Positions 2,340 through 61,100 of a stretch of DNA of 64,000 nt are shown here, piece after piece. This stretch comes from Streptantibioticus ferralitis (GTDB lineage Bacteria > Actinomycetota > Actinomycetes > Streptomycetales > Streptomycetaceae), in the NCBI RefSeq assembly GCF_029223525.1, contig NZ_JARHTQ010000003.1, positions 248,001 to 312,000 of the forward strand, read 5' to 3'. Position 1 is the stretch's first letter, and the number at the start of each line of letters is the position of its first letter. Below the pieces are notes generated by a model. It did no database searches, was not told the DNA's origin, and saw only the letters and a program-made list of their open reading frames with translations. Made by a program: the position numbers and the translations under genes.

Positions 2340-2525
2340 CGAACCGTCCGAATCCGATGCGCACCCACCACCCCGCGGTGCACTGAGAATTCGGCGGAAA
2401 ACCACGATCTGACGAACTGATCCGACGCTATGTGCGGCCCGTGAACCCGTAAAGGTTCCGATTTACGCGCATTGCCGTGACGTCAACTCATGCGCGGCCC
2501 GGCGTACTGCGAATCGGGGGAAATT

Positions 2526-5315
2526 GTGTCACTATCCGCCAAGCTGGTCGAGCGCGACGCCCACATGGCCGCGCTGAAGGAACTACTGCACAGCGCGATG
2601 AACGGCCGGGGCCGTGTCGCCTTGGTTAGCGGTGCGGTAGCAAGTGGGAAAACGGAACTGCTGGACAGCTTTACCGAGCAGGCGATCGAGGAAGGCGCGC
2701 TGCTGCTCGACGCCACCGGTTCGCGTGCTGAACGCTCGCTCCCGTTCGGGATACTGAGAAAGATATTCGACCACCCGTCGATATCGCCGCAGGTGCGTTC
2801 CGACGCGATCAGGATGTTGGACGAGGCGGCCGCCGAGTCGGCGCCGCACGCCCGAATGCGGGCCATGCCCTTCGCCTCCTGGGCACTGCTGCAACTCGCC
2901 AGAGAGCAAACGGTCGTTATCGCCATCGACGATGTGCACTACGCCGACGACCACTCCCTGCAGTTCCTGCTCTATCTGGCCCGACGGGTGCGGCAGGCGC
3001 GCATCCTCATCGCGCTGACCGAGGCCACCAGGCTGCGTCAGGAGCAGCTGGCGTTCCACGCCGAACTGCTGCGGCAACCGCACTGCAGCCGTGTGCACTT
3101 GAGCATGCTCTCCCTGAAGGGCACGGCGGGTGTCCTGGCCGGCCACTTCGCGCCCTCGACGGCGTCCCGGCTCGCCCCGGAATGCCATGAGATCACCGGC
3201 GGCAACCCGCTGCTGCTTCGGGCGCTGCTGGAGGACTGCCAGGGCGCCGCCGACCGCAACGAACCGTTCCAGCGCATCGCACCGTCCGAAACCTTCTCGC
3301 AGGCGGTGCGCGACTGTCTGCACCGCGGCGAGCCGGAAATGCTGACCGTGGCCCGAGGCATCGCCGTACTGGGTAACGTCGGTTCAACCGCCCTGCTCAG
3401 CCGGGTACTGGACATCCACGCCGAGGCGGCGGAGCAGGGCATCCAGGACCTCAGCCGGTGCGCCGTCCTGGACGGCGACGCCTTCCGCGACGCCTCGGCA
3501 CGCGACGCCGTACTGGCGGCGACACCGGCGGCGACCCTGTCAGCGCTGCATCTGCGCGCCGCCCAACTGCTGCACAAGGACGGCGCCAGCGCACTCGACG
3601 TGGCCCGGCACCTGCTCGCCTCCGACCAGGACGTCGAGTCGGCCATGGTGCCCGTCCTCCAGGAGGCGGCGGAGTACGCCCTGGTCGACGACGACATCGA
3701 GTTCGCGCTGAGCTGCCTCGAACTCGCCTACGGCGCCTGCACGGAGAGCGCCACGCGGGCCGCGATCAAGGCAAAGCTCGTCAGCGTCGTATGGCGGAGC
3801 TGCCCGGCAGCCGCCGAGAAGCACCTGCCGCAGCTGACCGCCGAACTGGAACCAGGACGGCTGCCGCGCCGCTACCTGGCGATGTCGATGTCGTATCTGG
3901 CGTGGTCAGGACAGCTGGACAACGCGGCCGACGTGGTCCTTGAACTCCAGTCACGTACCGGACAGCAGCCCGGCAACGACGAGGCGGCACTGGAGGCCGC
4001 CCGCCGCTGGCTCGCCATGATCAGCCCGCCGCTTGAGTCGGTCTTCCCGGAGTCCGGGATCAGCCGAGCGATGACGCAGGGCGGCGCCTGCGGAACCGTG
4101 GGCGACGCCCACACCCAGGCCGCGTCCGCCATTTCCGCTTCGCTCGCCGACGGCCTGGGTGACACCGCCGTCGCCGAGTCGCAGCGGGTACTCCAGCGCT
4201 ACCGGCTCAGTGACAGCACCCTCCAGCCGCTGGTCTTCGCGCTGCTGGCGCTGCTCTACGCGGACCGCGCCGACCTCGCGCTCGCCTGGTGCGAGCGGCT
4301 GCTCGGCGAGTGCTCGGCCCGCCGCGCGCCCGCCTGGCACGCACTGCTGTCCGCGGTACGGGCGGAGATCGCGCTGCGCCAGGGAGACCTGCCGGGCGCC
4401 GCGCACAACGCCCGCTCCGCGATGTCGCTGATCTCGCTGCAGAGCTGGGGAGTGCTCATCGCTCTCCCGCTGAGCACCCTGGTCCAGGCCGAGACCGCCA
4501 TGGGCAGGCACGACGAGGCGATGGCCCTCCTCGAACAGCCGGTCCCCGCCGCGCTGTTCCGGACCCTGCCGGGACTGCACTACCTGCGGGCAAGAGGCCG
4601 CAGCCATCTGGCGACCGGCCGCTACCACGCCGCCCTGGAGGACTTCCTCGCCTGCGGGCGCCTGATGGAGGAGTGGGGCGTGGACGCCCCCGAACTGGTG
4701 CCGTGGCGGATCGACGCCGCCGAGGCCTGGCTCGCCCTGGACGAGGCCGGGCAGGCCAAGTCCCTCGCCGAACGACAGCCACTGCGCGGCGGCTCCGGCA
4801 GCAGCCGGACGCGGGGCGCCCAACTGCTCGTGCTGGCCCGCACCGTGGAGCTCAAGCGCCGTCTGAACATGCTCAAGGAAGCGGTCGAGATCCTGGAGGG
4901 CGGCGACGACCGGCTGCAGCTGGCCGCCGCGTTGGGCGAGTTGGGCAACGGCTACCGTGCGCTCGGCGAGTTCAACCGGGCGCGCCTGCTGGTGCGCAAG
5001 GCATGGCACGTGGCCAAGGCGTGCGGCGCCGAGCCGTTGTGCCAGCAGCTGATCCCCGGCGACGCGGACGGTGAGGCCACCACCACGGGCCAGGCCGATG
5101 TGTCACGGGAGGCGGAGGCGCTCACCGAGGCCGAGTCGAGGGTGGCGGTGCTTGCCGCACACGGGCACACCAACCGAGAGATCGCCACCAAGCTGTATGT
5201 GACGGTGAGCACCGTGGAGCAGCATCTCACCCGGATATACCGCAAGCTGAAGGTCAAACGCCGCCGGGACCTCCCGTCGAAGCTCGCCGAGAGCAGCCTG
5301 GCGGGGATCGCCTAG
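2526..5315 (+). CDS. LuxR-family LAL transcriptional activator (PikD-like)
   Basis: Large ATP-binding LuxR regulator of about 929 aa, the size of pathway activators of the LAL class such as PikD. With the GTG at 2526 as start, Walker A (GAVASGKT) lies at residues 36-43 and a Walker B-like VVIAIDDVHYAD at about 130-141. The middle is helical, TPR-like sequence. A C-terminal LuxR helix-turn-helix starts LTEAESRVAVLAAHGHTNRE and includes the recognition segment TVSTVEQHLTRIYRKLKV. I prefer GTG 2526 over the upstream ATG at 2490 because GGGGGAAA immediately precedes it at good spacing and the family begins close to an LVERDxxxxxL motif. It is the most likely pathway-specific activator of the PKS operon. 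Candidate targets are the TAGGGGT-containing sites upstream of the thioesterase and PKS1; that link is inferred. Confidence 0.93.
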   Translation: MSLSAKLVERDAHMAALKELLHSAMNGRGRVALVSGAVASGKTELLDSFTEQAIEEGALLLDATGSRAERSLPFGILRKIFDHPSISPQVRSDAIRMLDEAAAESAPHARMRAMPFASWALLQLAREQTVVIAIDDVHYADDHSLQFLLYLARRVRQARILIALTEATRLRQEQLAFHAELLRQPHCSRVHLSMLSLKGTAGVLAGHFAPSTASRLAPECHEITGGNPLLLRALLEDCQGAADRNEPFQRIAPSETFSQAVRDCLHRGEPEMLTVARGIAVLGNVGSTALLSRVLDIHAEAAEQGIQDLSRCAVLDGDAFRDASARDAVLAATPAATLSALHLRAAQLLHKDGASALDVARHLLASDQDVESAMVPVLQEAAEYALVDDDIEFALSCLELAYGACTESATRAAIKAKLVSVVWRSCPAAAEKHLPQLTAELEPGRLPRRYLAMSMSYLAWSGQLDNAADVVLELQSRTGQQPGNDEAALEAARRWLAMISPPLESVFPESGISRAMTQGGACGTVGDAHTQAASAISASLADGLGDTAVAESQRVLQRYRLSDSTLQPLVFALLALLYADRADLALAWCERLLGECSARRAPAWHALLSAVRAEIALRQGDLPGAAHNARSAMSLISLQSWGVLIALPLSTLVQAETAMGRHDEAMALLEQPVPAALFRTLPGLHYLRARGRSHLATGRYHAALEDFLACGRLMEEWGVDAPELVPWRIDAAEAWLALDEAGQAKSLAERQPLRGGSGSSRTRGAQLLVLARTVELKRRLNMLKEAVEILEGGDDRLQLAAALGELGNGYRALGEFNRARLLVRKAWHVAKACGAEPLCQQLIPGDADGEATTTGQADVSREAEALTEAESRVAVLAAHGHTNREIATKLYVTVSTVEQHLTRIYRKLKVKRRRDLPSKLAESSLAGIA

Positions 5316-5739: not shown

Positions 5740-5768
5740 TCCTGACGGCGGCCAAGCCGCCGTCAGGA
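5740..5768 (-). terminator. Terminator hairpin overlapping the response-regulator stop codon
   Basis: TCCTGACGGCGGC (5740-5752) pairs perfectly with GCCGCCGTCAGGA (5756-5768) across a 3-nt loop. This 13-bp stem overlaps the stop codon of the minus-strand response regulator (5763-5765). It probably ends the two-component operon and may also stop readthrough from the LuxR-type gene. Confidence 0.75.
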
Positions 5769-6395
5769 CAGCAGGCCGCGCTCCAGCGCCGTGATGACCG
5801 CGGCGGTCCGGTCCGACACATCCAGCTTCCGGTACGCCCGCAGCAGATGGGTCTTCACCGTCGCCTCGCCGATGAACAGCTTCCTGCCGATCTCCGCATT
5901 GGTCAGCCCCTGACTGACCAGGCGCAACACCTCGACCTCCCGATCGGACAGCGGCGGTACGTCCACCGCCCTCGCCCGGAACAGCTTGGTCGCCAGGGAC
6001 GGCGTCAGCACCGTCTCGCCGCGGGCCGCCGCCTGGACCGCGTTGATGAGGTCCATCCGGGAACTGCCCTTCAGCAGGTACCCGGCCGCACCCGCCTCCA
6101 CGGCACGCAGGATGTCGGCGTCGCTCTCGTAGGTGGTGACGATGACGACCTTGCTGCGTGGCGACTCACGCAGGATGTGCCCTGTGGCGTCCACCCCGTC
6201 CATACCGCCCATCCGCAGGTCCAGCAGCACGATGTCGGGCATGAGGCGGGCCGCGAGGGCCACCGCCTCCTCACCGGAACCGGCCTGCCCGACGACGGTG
6301 ATGCCCTCGGCGGACTCCAGCATGGCGCACAGGCCTTCCCGTACCACCGGGTGGTCGTCGGCCAGCAGGACCCTGATCGCGGTCTCGTCGCTCAC
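5763..6395 (-). CDS. NarL/LuxR-type two-component response regulator
   Basis: 210 aa. The N-terminal receiver domain (about residues 6-122) has the acidic pair D13/D14, phospho-acceptor D59 in LLDLRMGGMDG, T86/T87 and K109. The C-terminal LuxR helix-turn-helix (about 148-205) starts with LSDREVEVLRLVSQGLTNAE. The start is GTG; the upstream GAGGGA overlaps the end of the kinase gene. The gap to the kinase stop is 4 nt, so the two are translationally coupled. The partner is the adjacent histidine kinase. Likely targets are the divergent promoter at 7654-7807, which carries a near-perfect palindrome, and hence the membrane-protein genes to its right; this is inferred from arrangement. Confidence 0.95.
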   Translation of the reverse strand: MSDETAIRVLLADDHPVVREGLCAMLESAEGITVVGQAGSGEEAVALAARLMPDIVLLDLRMGGMDGVDATGHILRESPRSKVVIVTTYESDADILRAVEAGAAGYLLKGSSRMDLINAVQAAARGETVLTPSLATKLFRARAVDVPPLSDREVEVLRLVSQGLTNAEIGRKLFIGEATVKTHLLRAYRKLDVSDRTAAVITALERGLLS

Positions 6396-6399
6396 GTTC

Positions 6400-7653
6400 T
6401 CATCCCTCGCCGGTCGGCTCCACGGGCACCGTCACCTCGATGGTCGTGCCCTGGCCGGGGCGGCTTCTGACGGCCGCCGCCCCGTTGATCTCCCGTGCCC
6501 TGGCCTGCATACCGCGCAGTCCGAAGCCCCCGCCGTCCCGCGGTACGGGCTGCTCCTGGAAGCCCTCACCGTCGTCCCGCACCAGTAGGCGGACGGTGGC
6601 TTCCTCGTACACCAGGACCACGTCCACGTTCCGGGCCTGCCTGGCGTGCTTGCGCACGTTCGCGAAGGCTTCCTGGACCGACCGCAGCAGGACCACGCTG
6701 ACCGCCATCGGCAGCGGCCGATCCGCGCCCTGCACCGAGCACCGCACCGTCAGCCCGGTCTCCGCGACCAGACCGTCCGCCTGCCGCCGTACCGCCTGCA
6801 CCAGCGAGCTCTCCCGCAGCGCCGGAGGGGTGAGCGCCGCAACGAACTCCCGCGCCTCGACGAGGCTGTCCTTCGCCACCCGCCCCGCCAGGCCCAGGTG
6901 CTGACGGGCCAGCTCCGGTGCGCCCGTCACTTCCGACTCCGCGGCCTGCACAAGGCTGATGATGCTGGTCAGGCCCTGCGCCAGGGTGTCGTGGATCTCC
7001 CGTGCCAGCCGCTCGCGCTCGGCGGAGATCCCGGCCTCATGGGACAGCCGGGCCAGCTGCTCGCGACTGCGCCGAAGCTCGTCGATCAGCTCGCCGCGCT
7101 CCCTGCTCTGCCGCACGACCCGGATGATCCACAGCCCCAGCAGCACGGACAGCGCGATGCCGAGCAGTGAGGTGGGCAGCACGGAGCCAATGTCCCCACC
7201 GGTCAGCCAGACGACCGTCACCGGCATGAGGTTGGCCAGTAAGACGACCGCGATCGCCGACGAGGTGGACAGCGCCATCATCAGCATCGGCACGACGGCG
7301 AACAGCGCGAAGGAGCCCGAGATGTCGAACGTGGTGGCCACCGCGAACAGCAGGAACAGACCCACTCCGAACACGATGTTCCGTCGGCTGACGCTCCGGT
7401 GGACGGTGTTGTGGAGCATCAGGCTCCGGCCGAGCGCCGCGTACCACGGGACCGCCAGCGTCAACGCGCCGATGGCGACGGCACGGCGCACCTGGTCGCC
7501 GTTGGTGGTGAACAGCAGCACGGTGGTGACGGCGTAACTGATCGCGAAGTACCCGTCCCACAGGCCGAACCAGCGGTTCCCCGCCTCGGGGGCCTGGTCC
7601 TCGTCCTGGTCCACCGCGTTCACCTGGGTGTTCACCGGGGTGTGAGTGCGCAC
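6400..7653 (-). CDS. Two-component sensor histidine kinase (HisKA_3 type)
   Basis: 417 aa from the GTG at 7653. The N-terminal half holds several hydrophobic membrane segments. The dimerisation/phosphoacceptor motif RLAREIHDTLAQGLTS has its His near residue 221. The C-terminal HATPase domain shows the N-box VQEAFANVRKHA, a DDGEGF G1 box and GFGLRGMQAR. I prefer GTG 7653, with AGGA about 8 nt upstream, to the GTG at 7692. The 7692 codon has no ribosome binding site and sits inside the operator-like palindrome 7686-7705. The kinase forms an operon with the response regulator. The sensed signal is unknown. The membrane-embedded input and the neighbouring envelope proteins suggest cell-envelope stress, which is an inference. 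Confidence 0.93.
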   Translation of the reverse strand: MRTHTPVNTQVNAVDQDEDQAPEAGNRWFGLWDGYFAISYAVTTVLLFTTNGDQVRRAVAIGALTLAVPWYAALGRSLMLHNTVHRSVSRRNIVFGVGLFLLFAVATTFDISGSFALFAVVPMLMMALSTSSAIAVVLLANLMPVTVVWLTGGDIGSVLPTSLLGIALSVLLGLWIIRVVRQSRERGELIDELRRSREQLARLSHEAGISAERERLAREIHDTLAQGLTSIISLVQAAESEVTGAPELARQHLGLAGRVAKDSLVEAREFVAALTPPALRESSLVQAVRRQADGLVAETGLTVRCSVQGADRPLPMAVSVVLLRSVQEAFANVRKHARQARNVDVVLVYEEATVRLLVRDDGEGFQEQPVPRDGGGFGLRGMQARAREINGAAAVRSRPGQGTTIEVTVPVEPTGEG

Positions 7654-7685
7654 AGCACAAGTCCTACCACCCTTCGGTGTCCGCT

Positions 7686-7705
7686 TGTCCACCGGTCGGT
7701 GGACA
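7686..7705. promoter_or_regulatory. 9-bp-arm palindrome in the divergent promoter of the two-component operon
   Basis: TGTCCACCG (7686-7694) and CGGTGGACA (7697-7705) form a perfect inverted repeat with a 2-bp spacer, centred between the divergent kinase and membrane-protein genes. Dyads of about this size are typical for dimeric LuxR/NarL-type response regulators. Autoregulation by the adjacent response regulator is the simplest reading. Confidence 0.6.
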
Positions 7706-10579: not shown

Positions 10580-11701
10580 TCAACCCGCGGCCAGCTCCTC
10601 CAACCGCGCCACGATCGACGCCGGAGTCGGCATCGCAGTGATCTCCTCACGCACCTCCTGGGCGGCGGTGCGCAGCTTCTCGTCGGACACCAACTGCTGC
10701 AGCAGCGCCACATCGAGATCGGCGGCCGCGCCGCTGATCCCGGCGCCCCGGTCGTGCACCGCCGTCGCGTTGACGAAGCGGTCCGCGCCGTCCGGCAGGA
10801 TGATCTGCGGGATACCGGCGTTCAGCGCCGCCAGCGTGGTGCCCGCACCGCCGTGGTGCACGGCGCCGACGCAGGTCTGCAGCAGCACGGTCAGCGGCAC
10901 CCACCCCACGACCCTTACGTTCGCCGGAAGTTCACCCAGGGCGCCGGTGTCGACGTCGCCGAGGGCCAGTACGAACTCCGCGTCCACCGAGGGCGCCGCG
11001 GCCAGCAGGCGCTGGACCGGCCCAAGACCGGTGACATGCACCGACGCCGTACCCAACGTCACCCCGATGCGCGGCCGCTCCGGCTTGTCCAGCACCCAAT
11101 CCGGCAGCACCGCACCGCTGTTGTACGGCACCGGGCGCATCGACCAGCTGTACGGCTCGGCCTCCACCATGCTCGGCGGCGCGATGTCGATGGTGCGCAC
11201 CTGCTCGGGCACGCTCTCCACGCCGTGCCGGCGCATGGTCTCGGTCAGTTGCGCGACGGTCATCGTGCGGATGTCGCCGCCGCGGGCGAAGCCGAAGTTG
11301 TGCTGTACCGCGGGCACACCGAGCTTCTGCGCGGCGATCAGTGCGGAGACGAAGATCTGCTCGTAGACGATCACGTCCGGGCGGAACGCCTCGGCAGTGC
11401 GCACGATGCCGTCCGTCAGATGGTCGTTGAGGTGTGCGAAGAGCTGGATACCGGCCATCGGGTCCGGTCCCTCGGGGTTGCGAACCCGCACCAGCAGGTC
11501 CGGCACGGTCTCCTGGAAGAAGCTTTCCATGTCGAGACCGGGTGCGACATCAGCCACATGCAGCCCGGCGTTGGCCACTTCCAGACCGTAGCAACCGGTG
11601 GCCACCAGCACCTCATGACCGGCCGCCCGCAGCGCCCACTGCAGCGGAACCGTGGGGAAAACATGGCCGATGGCCGGATAGGAGACGAACAGCACGCGCA
11701 T
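10580..11701 (-). CDS. GT1-family glycosyltransferase (natural-product type)
   Basis: 373-aa GT-B fold enzyme of the actinobacterial macrolide/aromatic polyketide glycosyltransferase group (CAZy GT1, UGT-like). It should transfer a nucleotide-activated, probably deoxy, sugar to the polyketide. The N-terminal acceptor domain begins MRVLFVSYPAIGHVFPTVPL with the candidate catalytic base His13. The donor-binding signature HHGGAGTTLAALNAGIPQI lies at about 282-300, followed by the loop PDGADRFVNA. It is somewhat shorter than DesVII/EryCIII-type enzymes (about 420 aa), and no P450-like helper gene is adjacent. ATG 11701 is chosen because AAAGGGG lies about 9 nt upstream. The frame opens back to 11812, but that part lacks the Rossmann start. 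It is divergent from PKS1, sharing a 226-bp promoter region. No sugar-biosynthesis genes are in the window. Confidence 0.93.
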   Translation of the reverse strand: MRVLFVSYPAIGHVFPTVPLQWALRAAGHEVLVATGCYGLEVANAGLHVADVAPGLDMESFFQETVPDLLVRVRNPEGPDPMAGIQLFAHLNDHLTDGIVRTAEAFRPDVIVYEQIFVSALIAAQKLGVPAVQHNFGFARGGDIRTMTVAQLTETMRRHGVESVPEQVRTIDIAPPSMVEAEPYSWSMRPVPYNSGAVLPDWVLDKPERPRIGVTLGTASVHVTGLGPVQRLLAAAPSVDAEFVLALGDVDTGALGELPANVRVVGWVPLTVLLQTCVGAVHHGGAGTTLAALNAGIPQIILPDGADRFVNATAVHDRGAGISGAAADLDVALLQQLVSDEKLRTAAQEVREEITAMPTPASIVARLEELAAG

Positions 11702-11822
11702 CAGTACGCGCCCCTTTCGGACTGCGCGAAATGCAGTCGATATTCTTGACTTTTCCTGCTTGCCAAGCGCATTCTCATCGAGTCCCCTGAAGCCCGTCAA
11801 GGCGCCTGTCAAGGCTCAACGG

Positions 11823-11927: not shown

Positions 11928-36164
<24,237 letters not shown>

Positions 36165-46116: not shown

Positions 46117-49100
46117 ATGATGACCACCCCCAACGAAAAGATCGTTGAAGCGCTGCGGGCCTCACTCAAGGAAACCGAGCGGCTGCGCCGACAGAACCAA
46201 CAGCTCACCGAGGCATCGCGGGAACCCATCGCGATCGTCGGCATGAGCTGCCGGTTCCCCGGCGGAGTGCGGTCGCCGGAGGATCTGTGGCGGCTGGTCG
46301 CGGAAGGCGGGGACGCGATCTCCGGCTTCCCGACCGACCGCGGCTGGGACACCGAGTCGCTGTACGACCCGGACCCGGAACGGGAGGGCACGTTCTACGC
46401 GCGTGAGGGCGGCTTCCTGCACGACGCGGCCGACTTCGACCCGGCGTTCTTCGGGATCTCGCCGCGTGAGGCGCTGGCGATGGACCCGCAGCAGCGGCTG
46501 CTGCTGGAGACCGCCTGGGAGGCGTTCGAGCGGGCGGGCATCGACCCGGCGGCCATCCACGGCAGCCGGGCCGGTGTCTTCGTCGGCGCTTCCTCCCAGG
46601 CATACGGCGCCGGCCAGTACGACCTGCCGGACGGCGTCGAGGGCCACCTGCTCACCGGAACCGCGTCCAGCGTGGTGTCAGGACGGCTCGCCTACGTCTT
46701 CGGCCTGGAAGGCCCCGCCGCCACGGTCGACACCGCCTGCTCGTCCTCGTCCGTCGCGCTCCACCTCGCCGTACAGGCGCTGCGGCAGGGCGAATGCTCG
46801 CTCGCCCTGGCAGCGGGCGTGACGGTACTTGCCACCCCCGACGTCTTCGTGGAGTTCAGCCGCCAGCGCGGCCTGTCACCGGACGGCCGCTGCAAGTCCT
46901 TCGCGGCCGACGCGGACGGTACGGGCTGGTCCGAAGGCGTCGGCGTGCTGCTGGTGGAGCGGCTGTCGGACGCCCGACGCAACGGCCACCCGGTGCTCGC
47001 CGTGGTCCGCGGCTCGGCGGTCAACCAGGACGGCGCCAGCAACGGGCTCACCGCGCCCAACGGCCCCGCGCAGCAACGGGTCATCCGCCAGGCCCTGGAG
47101 AACGCCCGCCTGACCGCCGACCAGATCGACGCCGTCGAGGCCCACGGCACCGGAACCCGGCTCGGCGACCCCATCGAGGCGCAGGCGCTGATCGCCACCT
47201 ACGGCCAGGAACGCGCCGCGGAACAACCCCTGTGGCTGGGCTCGTTGAAGTCCAACCTCGGGCACACCCAGAACGCCGCGGGCGTCGCCGGAATCATCAA
47301 GTCGGTCATGGCCATCCGGCACGGCGTACTGCCGAAGACCCTGCACGTCGAGGAGCCGACGCCGGACGTGGACTGGTCGGCGGGCGCCGTCTCGCTGCTG
47401 ACCGAGGCCCGGCCCTGGCCGGAAACCGGCCAGCCGCGCCGAGTCGGCGTGTCCGCGTTCGGGGTGAGCGGCACCAACGCCCACACGATCATCGAGCAGG
47501 CACCGGACTCCGACGCTCCCACCGAGGACACCGCCGCACCGCCGGTCGTGCCGTTGGTCCTGTCGGCCAAGGGCCCGGACGCGTTGCGCGATCAGGCGCG
47601 GCTGCTACGGGACCGACTGCTGGCCGACGACGGTGCCGCTCTCACCGACGTCGGCTACTCGCTGGCCCTCGGCCGCTCGGCCTTCGAACGCCGGGCGGCC
47701 GTCGTCGCGCCAGATCGCGACCGGCTCCTGGCGGGGCTGGACGCACTGGCTGAGGGCCGTGGTGCGGCCGGGGTCGTTGAGGGTTCGCCGGTTGGCGGGA
47801 AGGTCGCGTTCCTGTTCACCGGGCAGGGCAGTCAGCGTCTTGGCATGGGCCGGGAGCTGTACGAGGCGTATCCGGTGTTCGCTGAAGCGCTGGACGTGGT
47901 GTGTGAGCGGTTCGAACTGCCGCTGAGGGATGCGCTGTTCGGTACTGACAGCGGGGTGCTGGATCAGACCGCTTACACGCAGCCCGCGTTGTTCGCGGTT
48001 GAGGTGGCGTTGTTCCGGTTGGTGGAGTCGTGGGGGATCAGGCCGGACTTCCTGTCCGGGCATTCCATCGGTGAACTGGCGGCGGCGCACGTTGCCGGGG
48101 TGCTATCGCTCGATGACGCTTGTGCGTTGGTGGCGGCTCGTGGCCGTCTGATGCAGGAGCTGCCGGGTGGCGGCGCGATGGTCGCTGTTCAGGCCGCCGA
48201 GGATGAGATCACGCTCACCGAGGGCGTGAGCATTGCGGCGGTCAACGGTCCGACGTCCGTGGTGATCGCGGGTGACGAGGCCAAGGTTCTGGAGATCGCC
48301 GCGGCCTTCGAGGCGCAGGGTCGTAAGACCAAGCGGCTGACCGTCAGCCACGCGTTCCACTCGCCGCACATGGACGGGATGCTGGACGCGTTCCGTGCGG
48401 TGGCTGCGGGGCTGACGTTCAACGCCCCGCGTATCCCGATCGTTTCGAACCTCACCGGTGCTGTGGTGTCGGCTGAGGAGGTCACCGCGCCGGAGTTCTG
48501 GGTCCGCCATGTCCGTGAGGCCGTCCGTTTCCTCGACGGCATTCGCACGCTGGAGGCGCAGAACGTCACGACGTTCGTCGAGCTCGGCCCGGATGGTGTG
48601 CTGTCGGCGATGGCCCAGGACTGCGTCACGGCTGATGGCGCCGCCTTCGTCCCCGTACTCCGCACCGGCCGCCCCGAACCCGAAACCCTGACCGCCGCCT
48701 TGGCCCAGGTCCACGTCAACGGCATCGTCGTCGACTGGCAGGCGTACTTCACCGGAACCGGCGCCCGCCGCGTCGACCTGCCGACCTACGCCTTCCAGCG
48801 CGAGCGCTACTGGCTGGAGCCGGGATCCCGGGTCGGTGATGTGACGTCGGCCGGGCTTGAAGCCGCCGATCACCCGCTGTTGGGCGCGGCCGTGCCGCTC
48901 GCCGATTCCGACGGGTTCCTGTTCACCGGCCGACTCGGCCTTGACACCCACCCCTGGCTGGCCGACCACGCCGTCATGGGCACCGTCCTGCTGCCCGGCA
49001 CCGCCTTTGTGGAGCTCGCGATACGCGCGGGCGACCAGGTCGGCTGTGACCGGCTGGCGGAACTGACTCTCGAAGCCCCGCTGGTGCTGCCGGAACGCGG

Positions 49101-52100: not shown

Positions 52101-55100
52101 GATCAAGGCCTTCGCGGCCGGTGCCGACGGCACGAGCTGGTCAGAGGGCGTCGCGATGCTGCTGGTGGAGCGGCTGTCGGATGCTCGACGCAACGGCCAT
52201 CCGGTGCTGGCGGTGCTGCGCGGCAGCGCCATCAACCAGGACGGCGCGAGCAACGGTCTGACCGCGCCCAACGGACCGTCGCAGCAGCGGGTGATCCGCC
52301 AGGCACTGGCGGCTGCCGGCCTGTCCACGGCGGACGTGGACGCGGTGGAGGCGCACGGTACGGGCACCACGCTCGGTGACCCGATCGAGGCGCAGGCGCT
52401 GCTGGCCACCTACGGCAAGGACCGGCCGGAGGGACGGCCGCTGTGGCTGGGCTCGGTCAAGTCCAACATCGGTCACACCCAGGCAGTGGCCGGTGCCGCC
52501 GGAGTCATCAAGATGGTGATGGCCATCCGGCACGGCGTGCTGCCCCAGACGCTGCACATCGATGAGCCGACACCACACGTGGACTGGTCGGCCGGCGACA
52601 TCGCCCTGCTGACACAGGCGCAGCCCTGGCCGGAGACGGGCCAGCCGCGCCGGGCCGGTATCTCCTCGTTCGGCTACAGCGGCACCAACGCCCACGCGAT
52701 CATCGAACAGGCACCGGCCGCGGACAGCACGCCCGTTGCAGAACCGTCGGTCCACCTCCCGTACGTCCCTGTCGCGCTCTCCGGCAGGGCGGACGCGGCG
52801 CTACGCGCTCAGGCCGAGCGGCTTCACGCGCATCTTGAGGCGGAGCCGGGCGTGTCCCTGGCTGATGTCGGGTTTTCGCAGGCTGTCACCCGTGCCGCGT
52901 TGGATCGGCGTGCGGTGGTTGTCGCTGGGGACCGTGCGGATCTGCTGGCGGGCCTGGCCGAGCTTGCGGCCGGTCGCACGTCCGCCGCGCTGGTGGAGGG
53001 GACGGCCGCTGAGGGCAAGGTGGCGTTCCTTTTCACCGGGCAGGGCAGTCAGCGGCTGGGTATGGGCCGTGAGCTTTACGAGACGTATCCGGTGTTCGCT
53101 GAGGCGCTGGACGCGGTGTGTGAGCGGACCGAACTGCCGCTGCACGACGTGCTGTTCGGGACCGACGCCGACCTGCTGGACCAGACCGGCTACACGCAGC
53201 CTGCGTTGTTCGCGGTCGAGGTGGCGTTGTTCCGGTTGGTGGAGTCGTGGGGGCTGCGGCCGGACTTCCTGTCCGGGCACTCCATTGGTGAGCTGGCGGC
53301 GGCGCACGTTGCCGGGGTGCTGTCGCTGGATGACGCCTGCACGTTGGTGGCGGCTCGTGGCCGTTTGATGCAGGAGCTGCCGGGTGGCGGCGCGATGGTC
53401 GCTGTTCAGGCGTCCGAGGATGAGGTCACGCTGACGGATGGCGTGAGCATTGCGGCGATCAATGGGCCTTCCTCTGTCGTCATCGCGGGCGACGAGGCCG
53501 AGGTTCTGGAGATCGCTGCGGGCTTTGAGGCGCAGGGTCGTAAGACCAAGCGGCTGACCGTGAGCCATGCGTTCCATTCGCCGCATATGGACGGGATGCT
53601 GGACGCGTTCCGCGCGGTGGCTGCGGGGCTGACGTTCAACGCCCCGCGTATCCCGATTGTTTCGAACCTCACCGGTGCTGTCGTCTCCGCTGAGGAGATC
53701 TGCGCGCCGGAGTTCTGGGTCCGTCATGTGCGGGAGGCGGTGCGTTTCCTGGATGGTGTGCGGGTGTTGGAGGCCGAGGGCGTTACGACGTTCGTCGAGC
53801 TCGGTCCCGACGGTGTGCTGTCGGCCATGGCGCAGGACTGTGTCACGGCAGAGGACGCCGTGTTCGTTCCGGTGATGCGTAAGGGGCGTGTTGAAGCGGA
53901 GACGTTGACGGCTGCTGTCGCCCGGGCGCATGTCCGTGGTGTGACGGTGGACTGGGAGGCGTTCTTCGCGGGCACGGGGGCGGCCCGTGTCGATCTGCCG
54001 ACCTATGCCTTCCAACGTCGTCGCTTCTGGCCGGAGATCGCGATTGGCTCTGGTCGGCCTTCGGGGGCGGCCGGTTGGCGTTATCGGGTGGTTTGGCGGT
54101 CGTTGGCTGAGGTTCGGTCGTCGTCGCGTTTGTCGGGTGAGTGGTTGGTGGTGGTGCCGGAGGCTGGGTCTTCGGCTGATGTTGTCGGTGGGCTTGTTGA
54201 GCGTGGCGCCAGTGTGCGGGAGTTGGTTTTTGCGTCTGAGGAGGGGCTTGGGCGTGGGGTGTTGGCGGAGCGGCTTGGGGTTGGTGTAGCGGGTTCGTTG
54301 GCTGGTGTGGTGTCGCTTTTGCCTGGTGTGGTGTCGACGGCTGTGTTGGTGCAGGCGTTGGGTGATGCCGGTGTGGTGGCGCCGTTGTGGTGTGTGACGC
54401 GGGGTGCGGTGTCGGTTGCGGCGTCGGATCGGTTGCGTGATGTGGGGCAGGCTGGGGTTTGGGGTCTGGGCCGGGTTGTTGGGTTGGAGCATCCTGAGCG
54501 TTGGGGTGGCTTGGTTGATCTGCCGGAGACGGTGGATGGGCGGGCGTTGTCCCGGTTGGTTGGGGTGCTGGCTGGTGGGGTGGCTGGTGAGGACCAGGTC
54601 GCGGTGCGTTCGGCTGGGGTGTTCGGGCGCAGGTTGGTGCGTGCTGCGCAGGGCGGTGTCGAGGGTGGTGCGTGGGCGCCGGATGGCACGGTGTTGGTCA
54701 CTGGTGGTACCGGTGCGTTGGGTGCTGAGGTGGCGCGTTGGTTGGTGCGTGGTGGGGCCCGGCATGTCGTGTTGACCAGTCGCCGGGGTGTGGATGCGCC
54801 TGGTGCGGCTGAGCTGCGGGCCGAGTTGGCGGCTACCGGTGCCGAGGTCACGATTGCTGCGTGTGATGTGGCGGATCGTGGGGCGCTTGAGGGGTTGCTT
54901 GGTTCGATTCCGGCGGAGTATCCGCTGACGGGTGTGGTGCATGCGGCTGGTGTGTTGGATGACGGTGTTCTGGATGCTCTGACGCCTGAGCGGTTTGAGT
55001 ACGTGTGGCGGGCGAAGGCGCTCTCCGCGCTCAACCTGCATGAACTCACCCGCGATCTCGACCTGTCAGCGTTCGTACTGTTCTCCTCGATCAGCGGCAC

Positions 55101-58100
55101 GCTCGGCAGCACTGGGCAGGCCAACTACGCCGCCGCCAACGCGTACTTGGACGCGCTGGCCGAGCAGCGCCGGGCCGACGGCCTGGCCGCCACCTCCATC
55201 GCCTGGGGCGCCTGGGCCGAGGGCGGTATGGCGGCCGATGCCGAGTTGGAGCGGCGGATGCGGTTGGGCGGGGTCCCGCCGATGGCCGCTGAGCTGGCGA
55301 TCGAGGCGCTACAGCGTGCGCTGGACCTGGACGAGACGGCCGTGGCGGTCGCCGACGTCGACTGGGAGCGGTTCGCACCCGGCTTCACCGCCGTACGCCC
55401 CAGCCCACTGCTGGCCGAACTCCCGGAGGCCCGAAGCACCGCGCCCGCCGTCCCCGACGGTGGTTCGCGGTCGACGCTGGCCCAGCGGCTGGCTGGACTG
55501 TCCGAAGCGGAGCGGGAGCGGGTCACCCTCGAACTCGTCCGTACCTATGTGGCGGAGGTACTCGGACACTCCGATGTCGACGAGGTCGAGTCCGGGCGGG
55601 CGTTCAAGGAGCTTGGTTTTGACTCGCTGACCGCCGTGGAGCTACGGAACCGTCTGGGTGCGGCGACCGAGCTGCGGCTGCCTGCCACGTTGATCTTCGA
55701 CTATCCGACTCCGGCCGCGCTGGCGGAGTACCTGCGTACCGAACTCCTCGGTGTTCAGGCCGCGGTGGTCGGTCCGGTGGCGAAGGCGGTGGACGACGAT
55801 CCGATCGCGATCGTGGCGATGAGCTGCCGCTTCCCCGGCGGTGTGCGGTCACCGGAAGACCTGTGGGAGCTGCTGGCGTCTGGCGGGGACGCGATCTCCG
55901 GGCTGCCCATGGACCGTGGCTGGGACGTCGAATCCCTCTACAACCCCGACCCGGACGCCCCGGGCACGATGTACGCCCGTGAGGGCGGCTTCCTCTACGA
56001 CGCGGCCGACTTCGACCCGGCGTTCTTCGGGATCTCGCCGCGTGAGGCGCTGGCGATGGACCCGCAGCAGCGGCTGCTGCTGGAGACCTCGTGGGAGGCG
56101 TTCGAGCGGGCGGGCATCGACCCGGTCACGCTGCGCGGCAGCCAGGCCGGAGTATTCGTCGGCACCAACGGTCAGGACTATCTCTCGCTGCTGCTGCAGG
56201 AACCCGAGGGCCTTGAGGGGCACTTGGGCACGGGCAACGCCGCGAGCGTGGTCTCCGGCCGACTCTCCTACGTCTTCGGCCTTGAAGGCCCCGCGGTGAC
56301 CGTCGATACGGCGTGCTCGTCGTCGCTCGTCGCGCTGCACTGGGCGATCCAGGCGCTGCGCAACGGTGAGTGCTCGCTGGCGCTGGCCGGTGGTGTGACG
56401 GTGATGTCGACCCCGGGTACGTTCCTTGAGTTCAGCCGTCAGCGTGGTTTGGCGGAGGACGGTCGTATCAAGGCGTTCGCGGCCGCGGCGGATGGTACGG
56501 GGTGGGGTGAGGGTGTTGGCATGCTGCTGGTGGAGCGGCTGTCGGACGCTCGCCGTCATGGTCACCCGGTGCTGGCGATCGTGCGCGGCAGTGCCGTCAA
56601 CCAGGACGGCGCCAGCAATGGGCTGACGGCGCCCAATGGTCCGTCGCAGCAGCGAGTCATCCGCCAGGCGCTCGCCAGCGCTGGTTTGTCGGCGGCGGAC
56701 GTGGACGCGGTGGAGGCGCACGGTACGGGCACCACGCTGGGTGACCCGATCGAGGCGCAGGCGCTGCTGGCGACGTATGGGCAGGACCGTGCTGAGGGAC
56801 GGCCGCTGTGGCTGGGCTCGATCAAGTCCAACATCGGTCACACCCAGGCTGCGGCCGGTGTCGCGGGTGTGATCAAGATGGTGTTGGCGATGCAGAACGG
56901 CGTGCTGCCGCAGACGCTGCATGTGGATGAGCCGACGCCGCACGTGGACTGGTCGGAGGGCGATATCGCGCTGCTGACCGAGGCCGTGGAGTGGCCGGAG
57001 ACGGAGGGGCCGCGTAGGGCCGGTATCTCGTCGTTCGGCTTCAGCGGCACCAACGCGCACACGATCATCGAACAGGTACCGCAGGAACTGCCGGAGGACC
57101 CGGCGGAGGTGGCCGCCGCTCCCTCGACACTGCCGTGGGTGCTGTCGGCCAAGGAGCCGGAAGGGCTACGCGGCCAGGCCCTGCGGCTGCGGGACCACCT
57201 GCTGAGCGGCGATGATGCGGGACTGGCGAACGTGGGCTACTCGCTGGCGGTCGGCCGTACGACCTTCGAAAGCCGTGCCGTACTCGTAGCGGGTGATCGC
57301 GAGGAGTTCCTGGCGCGGCTCGATGCACTGGCCGAGGGACGTGGCACGGCTGGATTGGTCGAGGGTTCGCCGGTTGGCGGGAAGGTCGCGTTCCTGTTCA
57401 CCGGGCAGGGCAGTCAGCGGCTTGGCATGGGCCGGGAGCTGTACGAGACGTATCCCGTCTTCGCCGAAGCGGTGGACGCGGTGTGTGAGCGGTTGGAACT
57501 GCCGCTGAAGGATGTGCTGTTCGGGGACGAAGGCACGTTGCTGGATCAGACGGCCTACACGCAGCCCGCGCTGTTCGCGGTTGAGGTGGCGTTGTTCCGG
57601 TTGGTGGAGTCGTGGGGGTTGAAGCCGGACTTCCTGTCCGGGCATTCGATCGGTGAGTTGGCTGCTGCGCATGTGGCGGGTGTGCTGTCGCTTGCGGATG
57701 CTTGTGCGTTGGTGGCGGCTCGTGGCCGGTTGATGCAGGAGCTGCCGGGTGGCGGCGCGATGGTCGCTGTTCAGGCGTCCGAGGATGAGGTCACGCTGAC
57801 GGATGGCGTGAGCATCGCGGCGATCAATGGGCCTTCCTCTGTCGTCATCGCGGGCGACGAGGCCGAGGTTCTGGAGATCACCGCGGGCTTTGAGGCGCGG
57901 GGTCGTAAGACCAAGCGGCTGACCGTGAGCCATGCGTTCCATTCGCCGCATATGGACGGGATGCTGGACGCGTTCCGCGAGGTGGCCGCAGGCCTGACCT
58001 ACCAAGCCCCACGCATTCCGATCGTCTCCAACCTCACCGGCACCGTCGTCTCCGCCGAGGAGATCACCGCGCCGGAGTTCTGGGTCCGCCATGTCCGTGA

Positions 58101-61100
58101 GGCCGTCCGCTTCCTCGATGGCATCCGGACGCTGGAGGCGCAGAACGTCACGACGTTCGTCGAGCTCGGTCCCGACGGTGTGCTGTCGGCCATGGCACAG
58201 GACTGCGTCACGGCAGAGGACGCCGTGTTCGTTCCGGTGATGCGTAAGGGGCGTGTTGAAGCAGAGACGCTGACGGCCGCTGTCGCCCAGGTGCATGTCC
58301 GTGGTGTGACGGTGGACTGGGAGGCGTTCTTCGCGGGCACGGGCGCACATCGAGTGGACCTGCCCACGTATGCCTTCCAGCGCCAGCGCTACTGGCCGGA
58401 GATTTTCACGCAGTCGACGGATATCGCGACACCTGGCTCGGTTGACGGTTGGCGTTATCGGGTGGTTTGGCGGTCGTTGGCTGAGGTTCGGTCGTCGTCG
58501 CGTTTGTCGGGTGAGTGGTTGGTGGTGGTGCCGGAGGCTGGGTCTTCGGCTGATGTTGTCGGTGGGCTTGTTGAGCGTGGCGCCAGTGTGCGGGAGTTGG
58601 TTTTTGCGTCTGAGGAGGGGCTTGGGCGTGGGGTGTTGGCGGAGCGGCTTGGGGTTGGTGTAGCGGGTTCGTTGGCTGGTGTGGTGTCGCTTTTGCCTGG
58701 TGTGGTGTCGACGGCTGTGTTGGTGCAGGCGTTGGGTGATGCCGGTGTGGTGGCGCCGTTGTGGTGTGTGACGCGGGGTGCGGTGTCGGTTGCGGCGTCG
58801 GATCGGTTGCGTGATGTGGGGCAGGCTGGGGTTTGGGGTCTGGGCCGGGTTGTTGGGTTGGAGCATCCGGAGCGTTGGGGTGGCTTGGTTGATCTGCCGG
58901 AGGCGGTGGATGGGCGGGCGTTGTCCCGGTTGGTTGGGGTGCTGGCTGGTGGGGTGGCTGGTGAGGACCAGGTCGCGGTGCGTTCGGCTGGGGTGTTCGG
59001 GCGCAGGTTGGTGCGTGCTGCGCAGGGCGGTGTCGAGGGTGGTGCGTGGGCGCCGGATGGCACGGTGTTGGTCACTGGTGGTACCGGTGCGTTGGGTGCT
59101 GAGGTGGCGCGTTGGTTGGTGCGTGGTGGTGCCCGGCATGTCGTGTTGACCAGTCGCCGGGGTGTGGATGCGCCTGGTGCGGCTGAGCTGCGGGCCGAGT
59201 TGGCGGCTACCGGTGCCGAGGTCACGATTGCTGCGTGTGATGTGGCGGATCGTGGGGCGCTTGAGGGGTTGCTTGGTTCGATTCCGGCGGAGTATCCGCT
59301 GACGGGTGTGGTGCATGCGGCTGGTGTGTTGGATGACGGTGTTCTGGATGCTCTGACGCCTGAGCGGTTTGAGTACGTGTGGCGGGCGAAGGCGCTCTCC
59401 GCGCTCAACCTGCATGAACTCACCCGTGATCTCGACCTGTCAGCGTTCGTACTGTTCTCCTCGGTGAGCGGTGTCTGGGGTACCGCCGGCCAGGCCAACT
59501 ACGCTGCCGCGAACGCGTTCTTGGACGCCCTGGCCGAGCAGCGCCGGGCCGAGGGCCTGGTGGCAGCGTCGGTGGCATGGGGGCCGTGGGCTGAGGGCGG
59601 TATGGCGGCCGATGCCGAGTTGGAGCGGCGGATGCGGTTGGGCGGGGTCCCGCCGATGGCCGCTGAGCTGGCGATCGAGGCGCTACAGCGTGCGCTGGAC
59701 CTGGATGAGACGGCCGTGGCGGTCGCCGACGTCGACTGGGAGCGGTTCGCACCCGGCTTCACCGCCGTACGCCCCAGCCCACTGTTCGCCGAACTCCCGG
59801 AGGCGCGCCGCGCCCTGAACGGCACTGATGCCTCAACACCCGCCAGCGACAGCCGAGTTGCCGAATCCTCACTGGTGCAGCGCCTCACCGGCCTGTCCGA
59901 GGCCGAGCAGAGCCGCACGCTACTGGATCTGGTGCGGGGCGCCGTGGCGGTGGTACTGGGTCACGCCGGAGCCGAGTCCGTCGGTGCCAACCGGGCGTTC
60001 AAGGAGCTTGGTTTCGACTCGCTGACCGCCGTGGAGCTACGGAACCGTCTGGGTGCGGCGACCGAGCTGCGGCTGCCTGCCACGTTGATCTTCGACTATC
60101 CGACTCCGGCCGCGCTGGCGGAGTACCTGCGTACCGAACTCCTGGGAGTTCAGGCCGCGGTGGTCGGTCCGGTGGCGAAGGCGGTGGACGACGACCCGAT
60201 CGCGATCGTGGCGATGAGCTGCCGCTTCCCCGGCGGCGTGCGTACCCCCGAGGACCTTTGGCGGCTGCTGACTTCGGGTGTCGACGCCGTGGGGGAGTTC
60301 CCGACCGACCGTGGCTGGGACATCGAGTCGCTCTATGACCCGCGGTCCGAGGGCCAGGACACGTCCTACGCGAACGAAGGCGGCTTCCTTTACGACGCGG
60401 GCGAGTTCGATCCGGCGTTCTTCGGGATCTCGCCGCGTGAGGCGCTGGCGATGGACCCGCAGCAGCGGCTGCTGCTGGAGACCTCGTGGGAGGCGTTCGA
60501 GCGGGCCGGAATCGACCCGTCGTCGCTGCGCGGCAGCCAGGCTGGAGTCTTCGTCGGCACCAACGGTCAGGACTACCTGTCCCTGGTCCTGAACTCGGCC
60601 GACGGCGGCGACGGCTTCATGAGCACCGGCAACTCGGCGAGTGTGGTGTCCGGCCGTCTCTCCTACACCTTCGGCCTCGAAGGCCCTGCGATGACTGTCG
60701 ATACGGCGTGCTCGTCCTCGTTGGTGGCGCTGCACCTGGCGGCGCAGGCCTTGCGCAACGGTGAGTGCTCGCTGGCGCTGGCCGGTGGTGTGACGGTGAT
60801 GTCGACCCCGGGCGCGTTCATCGAGTTCAGTCGTCAGCGCGGTTTGGCGGAGGACGGTCGTATCAAGGCGTTCGCGGCGGGTGCGGATGGTACGGGGTGG
60901 GGTGAGGGTGTTGGCATGCTGCTGGTGGAGCGGCTGTCGGACGCTCGCCGTCATGGTCACCCGGTGCTGGCGATCGTGCGCGGTAGCGCCGTCAATCAGG
61001 ATGGCGCGAGTAATGGTCTGACGGCGCCGAACGGTCCCTCGCAGCAGCGGGTGATCCGGCAGGCGCTGGCAAGTGCTGGTTTGTCGGCGAGCGACGTTGA

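Follow-up and report, generated by a model that had tools for sequence, protein, structure and literature searches.

How does a ketoreductase (KR) come to carry the markers of both stereochemical types, and which type of alcohol is it likely to make? KR10, of module 10 in a giant modular PKS of antifungal type, has the B-type marker LDD and, eight residues before its catalytic Tyr (position −8), the A-type marker Trp. Mutagenesis of these two motifs has so far been contradictory, and KRs with both constitute a recognised gap in stereochemical prediction. The combination itself is not new: Xiang et al. 2024 recorded KRs in which LDD and W motifs co-occur as unpredictable β-module KRs (PMC11228615), and KR10 shares this contradictory pair with those cis-AT PKS KRs. 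It differs from them in that its Trp is conserved across the orthologues of one module and survives homogenisation with the neighbouring KR. What is new here is this conservation of the Trp in KR10 orthologues, while the surrounding DNA appears to have been overwritten repeatedly by the neighbouring KR. Our preferred reading, with a probability of about 0.68, is that KR10 has a B-type body and an old Trp loop that selection kept through conversion by KR9.

KR10 and its PKS

The window, that is, the whole 64,000-nucleotide stretch of DNA analysed (positions 248001–312000 of contig C44), is the first part of a PKS that reaches past the window end to about C44:393705. Motif annotation of the whole PKS yielded nine PKS ORFs, a loading ACP, and 26 extension modules. 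These gene and module numbers, along with a glycosyltransferase nearby, characterise neotetrafibricin-type giant linear polyene PKSs, and we infer a product of this type. Genes assigned by reading only are the glycosyltransferase-like ORF (10580–11812, − strand), a type II thioesterase (1537–2304, +), a LuxR-family large regulator (2490–5315, +), and a two-component pair (5763–7692, −); these upstream genes would fit a glycosylated linear polyene cluster. The gene and module number also match those of the Inha-neotetrafibricin PKS of S. rubrisoli Inha501, for which nine PKS genes and 27 modules have been proposed (PMC9421130). S. rubrisoli DSM 42083, of the same genus as the window genome, has modules 2–10 collinear with those of the window. 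Its contig breaks off within module 10, the assembly examined has no KR10, and KRs were compared up to KR9. The mediomycin/clethramycin PKS of Kitasatospora mediocidica (PMC5704753) likewise has nine subunits in nearly the same module order, and its module 10 KS is the nearest to that of the window. However, it has 27 extension modules, and its KR10 carries Val (ITGTVGTAGQGNY) in place of the Trp.

Module 10 extends from its KS motif to its ACP Ser motif at 56305–60024 (+) within a PKS ORF at 46117–65739 (+). In the motif annotation of the 26-module PKS it has a KS-AT-KR-ACP arrangement, that of a β-module without DH; the KS, AT, and ACP motifs are placed at 56305, 57640, and 60010, respectively, leaving a gap too small for a DH. 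The catalytic subdomain of KR10 lies at 59059–59595 (+; Pfam KR match, C44:307059–307595). Having an NADPH motif and the Ser/Tyr/Asn active-site pattern intact, KR10 is predicted to be an active ketoreductase. As the initial annotation had stated, LDD (59329–59337, +) and the Trp codon TGG (59476–59478, +) belong to one KR, both in frame with the catalytic Tyr codon TAC (59500–59502, +), and the Trp is exactly eight residues before the Tyr. Elsewhere in the PKS, KR12 (C44:317366–317899, just past the window end) retains LDD, but its catalytic Tyr is replaced by Gln (GQGNQAPGN). The Gln recurs in S. coacervatus, S. lavendulae, K. mediocidica, and BR123 (where LDD is missing), and KR12 is therefore predicted to be a conserved inactive or non-reducing KR.

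Apart from the Trp, all published fingerprints tested in the window KR10 are B-type (scored as in PMC11228615 and PMC5331325). LDD is present in all 6 orthologous KR10s, that of the window among them. The window KR10 also has the Arg of position 3 (PER), the Thr of position 5 (HELT), and LSAF, in which Ser takes the place of the A-type Asp of position 6, as well as Asn before the Tyr (QANY). The Trp at −8, which a B-type KR should lack, is found in 6 of 6 orthologues. Judged as an A-type KR, KR10 has the expected Trp and departs from type in its LDD, its Ser, and its Asn. Genuine A-type KRs occur in the same PKS: KR5 and KR7 have LDAF and QGAY, and differ from KR10 throughout. Among the nearest solved KRs is AmphB KR2, an A1-type KR (PDB 3mjc, 5xwv), which has Trp at the same position. 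Unlike KR10, it lacks LDD (HDD after an inserted residue), has Asp in LDAF, and has no Asn before the Tyr.

The combination of LDD and Trp had been called rare. It is uncommon, being found in about 6% of LDD KRs (11 of 190 in a 31-genome subset, searched with the Trp requirement dropped), yet the full pattern, LDD-(138 nt)-Trp-...-Tyr, occurs at 34 sites distributed over 22 of the 381 family genomes. Most of the other cases are of two kinds, namely otherwise A-type KRs (HLDELT...) having LDD, and RPKVDGAWNLHELT...GIWGNPGQ KRs. KR10, with its B-type body and QANY, belongs to a third, smaller kind.

Homogenisation of KR9 and KR10 around the Trp loop

KR9 and KR10 were compared at an offset of 4374 bp. 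A tract of 1339 bp in KR10 (58446–59784, +) has 37 differences from the KR9 copy (54072–55410, +), which has LDD and Leu at −8 and is the conversion partner and likely donor. An island of 129 bp (59464–59592, +), interpreted as a conserved segment of KR10's own, holds 32 of these differences, and the other 1210 bp hold 5 (99.6% identity). The near-identity of the two KRs around a divergent patch, which had been reported earlier, is thus borne out, and so are the patch boundaries at 59463 and about 59600; the length of about 140 bp is to be corrected to 129 bp. At the start of the island is the core Trp loop, VSGVWGTA (59464–59487, +), in which KR9 remains distinct from KR10 in each of the five genomes having both domains. 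For the window PKS, none of 5000 shuffles matched the densest 24-bp segment of KR9/KR10 differences. KR4 holds the KR9 version of the island at 97% identity, with surroundings that are just 70–88% alike. A search for a donor of the island in the window's own genome and 395 family genomes gave no match above 83%, which is consistent with a native origin.

The upstream part of the tract (58446–59376, +) is GRINS-like, with strong GC and TA skew (G exceeding C, and T exceeding A). GRINS are defined as segments of about 1 kb that are over 90% identical to another segment of the same PKS and have GC and TA skews above 25% (Nivina et al. 2021; PMC10394414). This part has 3 differences from its KR9 copy over about 930 bp, and in 150-bp segments its GC skew is 0.35–0.55 and its TA skew 0.44–0.81, all in agreement with this definition. 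No strongly skewed stretch of the PKS is longer than 58416–59376 and its KR9 counterpart, 54036–54996. LDD is encoded within the GRINS, and the Trp outside it, 100 bp downstream. Unlike GRINS as described, the converted tract of KR10 continues past the skewed part and leaves an island of functional residues unconverted. Further GRINS-like skewed segments of the PKS lie at 24186–24786, 25266–26106, 67386–68076, and 104166–104796 (window numbering).

In a tree of the KR sequence upstream of the loop, KR9 and KR10 of the same genome grouped together for the window (support 100/100), S. coacervatus (100/99), and Isolate_45 (99/98). A single KR10 clade was rejected for the flanks (AU p 2e-5), as was a single KR9 clade (AU p 1.7e-6). 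In S. coacervatus, 6 of 394 bp upstream of the loop and 3 of 93 bp downstream distinguish KR9 from KR10, against 13 of 24 bp in the loop itself. In 5 of 5 genomes with both domains, the 24-bp segment richest in differences begins between −41 and −36, counted from the Tyr codon. Its density is exceptional against shuffles in four of the five; in S. lavendulae it was reached by 95 of 5000 shuffles, owing to the only moderate similarity of the flanks there. In BR123 and Isolate_45, too, the KR9 and KR10 flanks are no more than about 87–90% alike. The window genome and S. coacervatus show recent, strong homogenisation, and the other genomes a weaker one. These comparisons show that KR9 and KR10 have been homogenised repeatedly within a genome in this PKS family, and that the Trp loop alone stays module-specific.

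As to direction, S. rubrisoli KR9 has about 85% identity, in the linker and in the lid region, to both KR9 and KR10 of the window. Past the tract, identity to S. rubrisoli module 9 drops to 72% for window module 10 and stays at 83% for window module 9. The drop favours KR9 as donor and, with one relative (S. rubrisoli KR9) as the reference, a conversion from KR9 to KR10 in the window genome. The near-identity of KR9 and KR10 may also be a cause of cluster breaks in short-read genomes. A second homogenised pair occurs in the PKS, KR24 and KR25 (C44:381190 and 386701), whose catalytic cores are identical. In S. lavendulae CCM 3239 the cluster (C1:1905001–1965000) contains the module 2–module 3 pair in an additional copy (the GTIG/AAFG KR pattern occurs twice) and nearly identical KR2, KR4, and KR9, suggesting that module duplication and conversion are ongoing there too.

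The Trp loop in orthologous module 10s

LDD and Trp occur together at module 10 in 6 of 6 Streptomycetaceae having a collinear PKS and a readable KR10: besides the window genome, these are S. coacervatus, S. lavendulae, Streptomyces sp. BR123, Isolate_45, and S. inusitatus. The loop reads WGTAGQANY at module 10 of S. lavendulae CCM 3239 (a closed chromosome), BR123, Isolate_45, and S. inusitatus. In the collinear cluster of S. coacervatus (modules 4–26 read), KR9 has GTLGAPGQANY, and KR10 has LDD and the Trp loop. No KR9 has Trp at −8 (0 of 6), and no Trp was seen in the other LDD paralogues read in these clusters (KR1–4).

In KS trees, all module-9 KS domains form one clade (100/100). The module-10 KS domains are not interleaved with those of module 9 in either of the two KS trees, and their own branch is weakly placed. 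Just four of 352 aligned columns separate all KR10s from all KR9s. Within the KR domain these are an invariant Trp(−8) and an invariant Thr(−6); the remaining two, at +137 and +146, are beyond the domain and variable. Among KR10 orthologues the loop has a pS of 0.64 and a pN of 0.11, so the peptide was conserved while the DNA diverged, which argues that the loop is old and native. The left flank, where there is a 2-amino acid indel, was excluded from this ungapped comparison; in the KR10s of four relatives the region after HELT is altered, with a 2-amino acid insertion.

The Trp patch had been ascribed to a different origin from the rest of KR10. Five orthologous module 10s share LDD, Trp, and the same loop, and this attribution is not supported: the loop is old sequence native to KR10, whereas its flanks were imported or homogenised with KR9. 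The loop is an old, conserved feature of module 10 and not a recent insertion. The retention of Trp(−8) and Thr(−6) would fit selection for a role specific to KR10, and the Trp probably matters for the product.

Origin of the loop and predicted stereochemistry

The preferred reading of a B-type body with a retained loop entails the following. In the window genome, KR9 sequence would have replaced that of KR10 to the left and right of the loop, which selection would have held because KR10 needs it. Less certainly, the Trp may face LDD over the substrate groove and tune entry of the phosphopantetheine chain. The initial annotation had the reverse history, a foreign patch lately inserted into a KR9-like KR10. 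The sharp edges of the island, the failure of the donor search to find any match above 83%, and the near-identical non-Trp version shared by KR4 and KR9 would suit such an insertion. It is contradicted by the LDD- and Trp-containing orthologues at module 10: six species share the loop, with the peptide conserved over diverged DNA, and we consider recent insertion very improbable. An assembly artefact is less credible still. The genome is a short-read one (110 contigs), the site is a 1-kb repeat shared almost unchanged by KR9 and KR10, and in S. rubrisoli the contig breaks inside the same module; yet the same arrangement is found in the closed S. lavendulae chromosome and in single contigs of other genomes. 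The loop might also have been retained without function, conversion tracts stopping where the loop was already divergent and the Trp being neutral for the product. Conversion depends on local homology, and short tracts may skip a mismatch-rich loop; moreover, several kinds of LDD and Trp KRs exist elsewhere. We regard neutral retention as unlikely, since the window genome and S. coacervatus homogenised both sides and spared just the loop region, and since the peptide was conserved over divergent DNA.

The main alternative is that stereochemistry is dictated by the old loop, which makes KR10 A-type, with LDD imposed by conversion from KR9, the loop preserved by selection against loss of the stereocentre, and the C35/C37 diol anti. 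The Trp is, with Thr(−6), the sole invariant KR10-specific residue of the domain, and its persistence would be explained most readily by a visible effect on the product. The orthologous KR10 of mediomycin, with Val at this position, would provide the contrasting case. Experiments on DEBS point both ways: exchange of motifs turned isolated DEBS KR1 to A-type reduction, whereas intact DEBS 1-TE with the same Caffrey-motif mutations showed no switch in vivo (PMC5331325). Against an A-type KR10 stand its LDD, PER, HELT, LSAF, and Asn before Tyr, and its dissimilarity throughout to KR5 and KR7. We think an A-type KR10 possible but doubtful, and give the same weight to the reading that one Trp loop, protected by selection amid GRINS-driven conversion of the remaining domain, LDD too, overrides an otherwise complete B-type background and sets A-type configuration at one carbon.

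Carbons were numbered from the carboxyl end at two per module, with each of the 26 modules acting once, so that KR10 sets C35 and KR9 sets C37. KRs of the same type give a syn C35/C37 1,3-diol, and KRs of opposite types an anti one. Because the fingerprints of the window KR10 other than the Trp are B-type, we favour, with moderate confidence, a B-type (3R) alcohol at C35 and a syn diol with the product of KR9; the motifs behind this call have known exceptions, and the KR10 of S. inusitatus has the A-type Asp (LDAF). A literature search for a published configuration of neotetrafibricin found none. For mediomycin, the relative configuration has been reported to agree with prediction (PMC5704753).

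The proposal that the locus is a natural one-loop test of stereocontrol is well founded, as KR9 and KR10 are a near-isogenic pair; in S. coacervatus their catalytic cores differ by little beyond the Trp loop. An ordinary class of domain thus provides an unusually clean natural test, in which the pair, together with the mediomycin orthologue lacking the Trp, could show whether Trp outranks LDD. Islands that are still different inside converted tracts are suggested as a general route to function-setting residues of PKSs.
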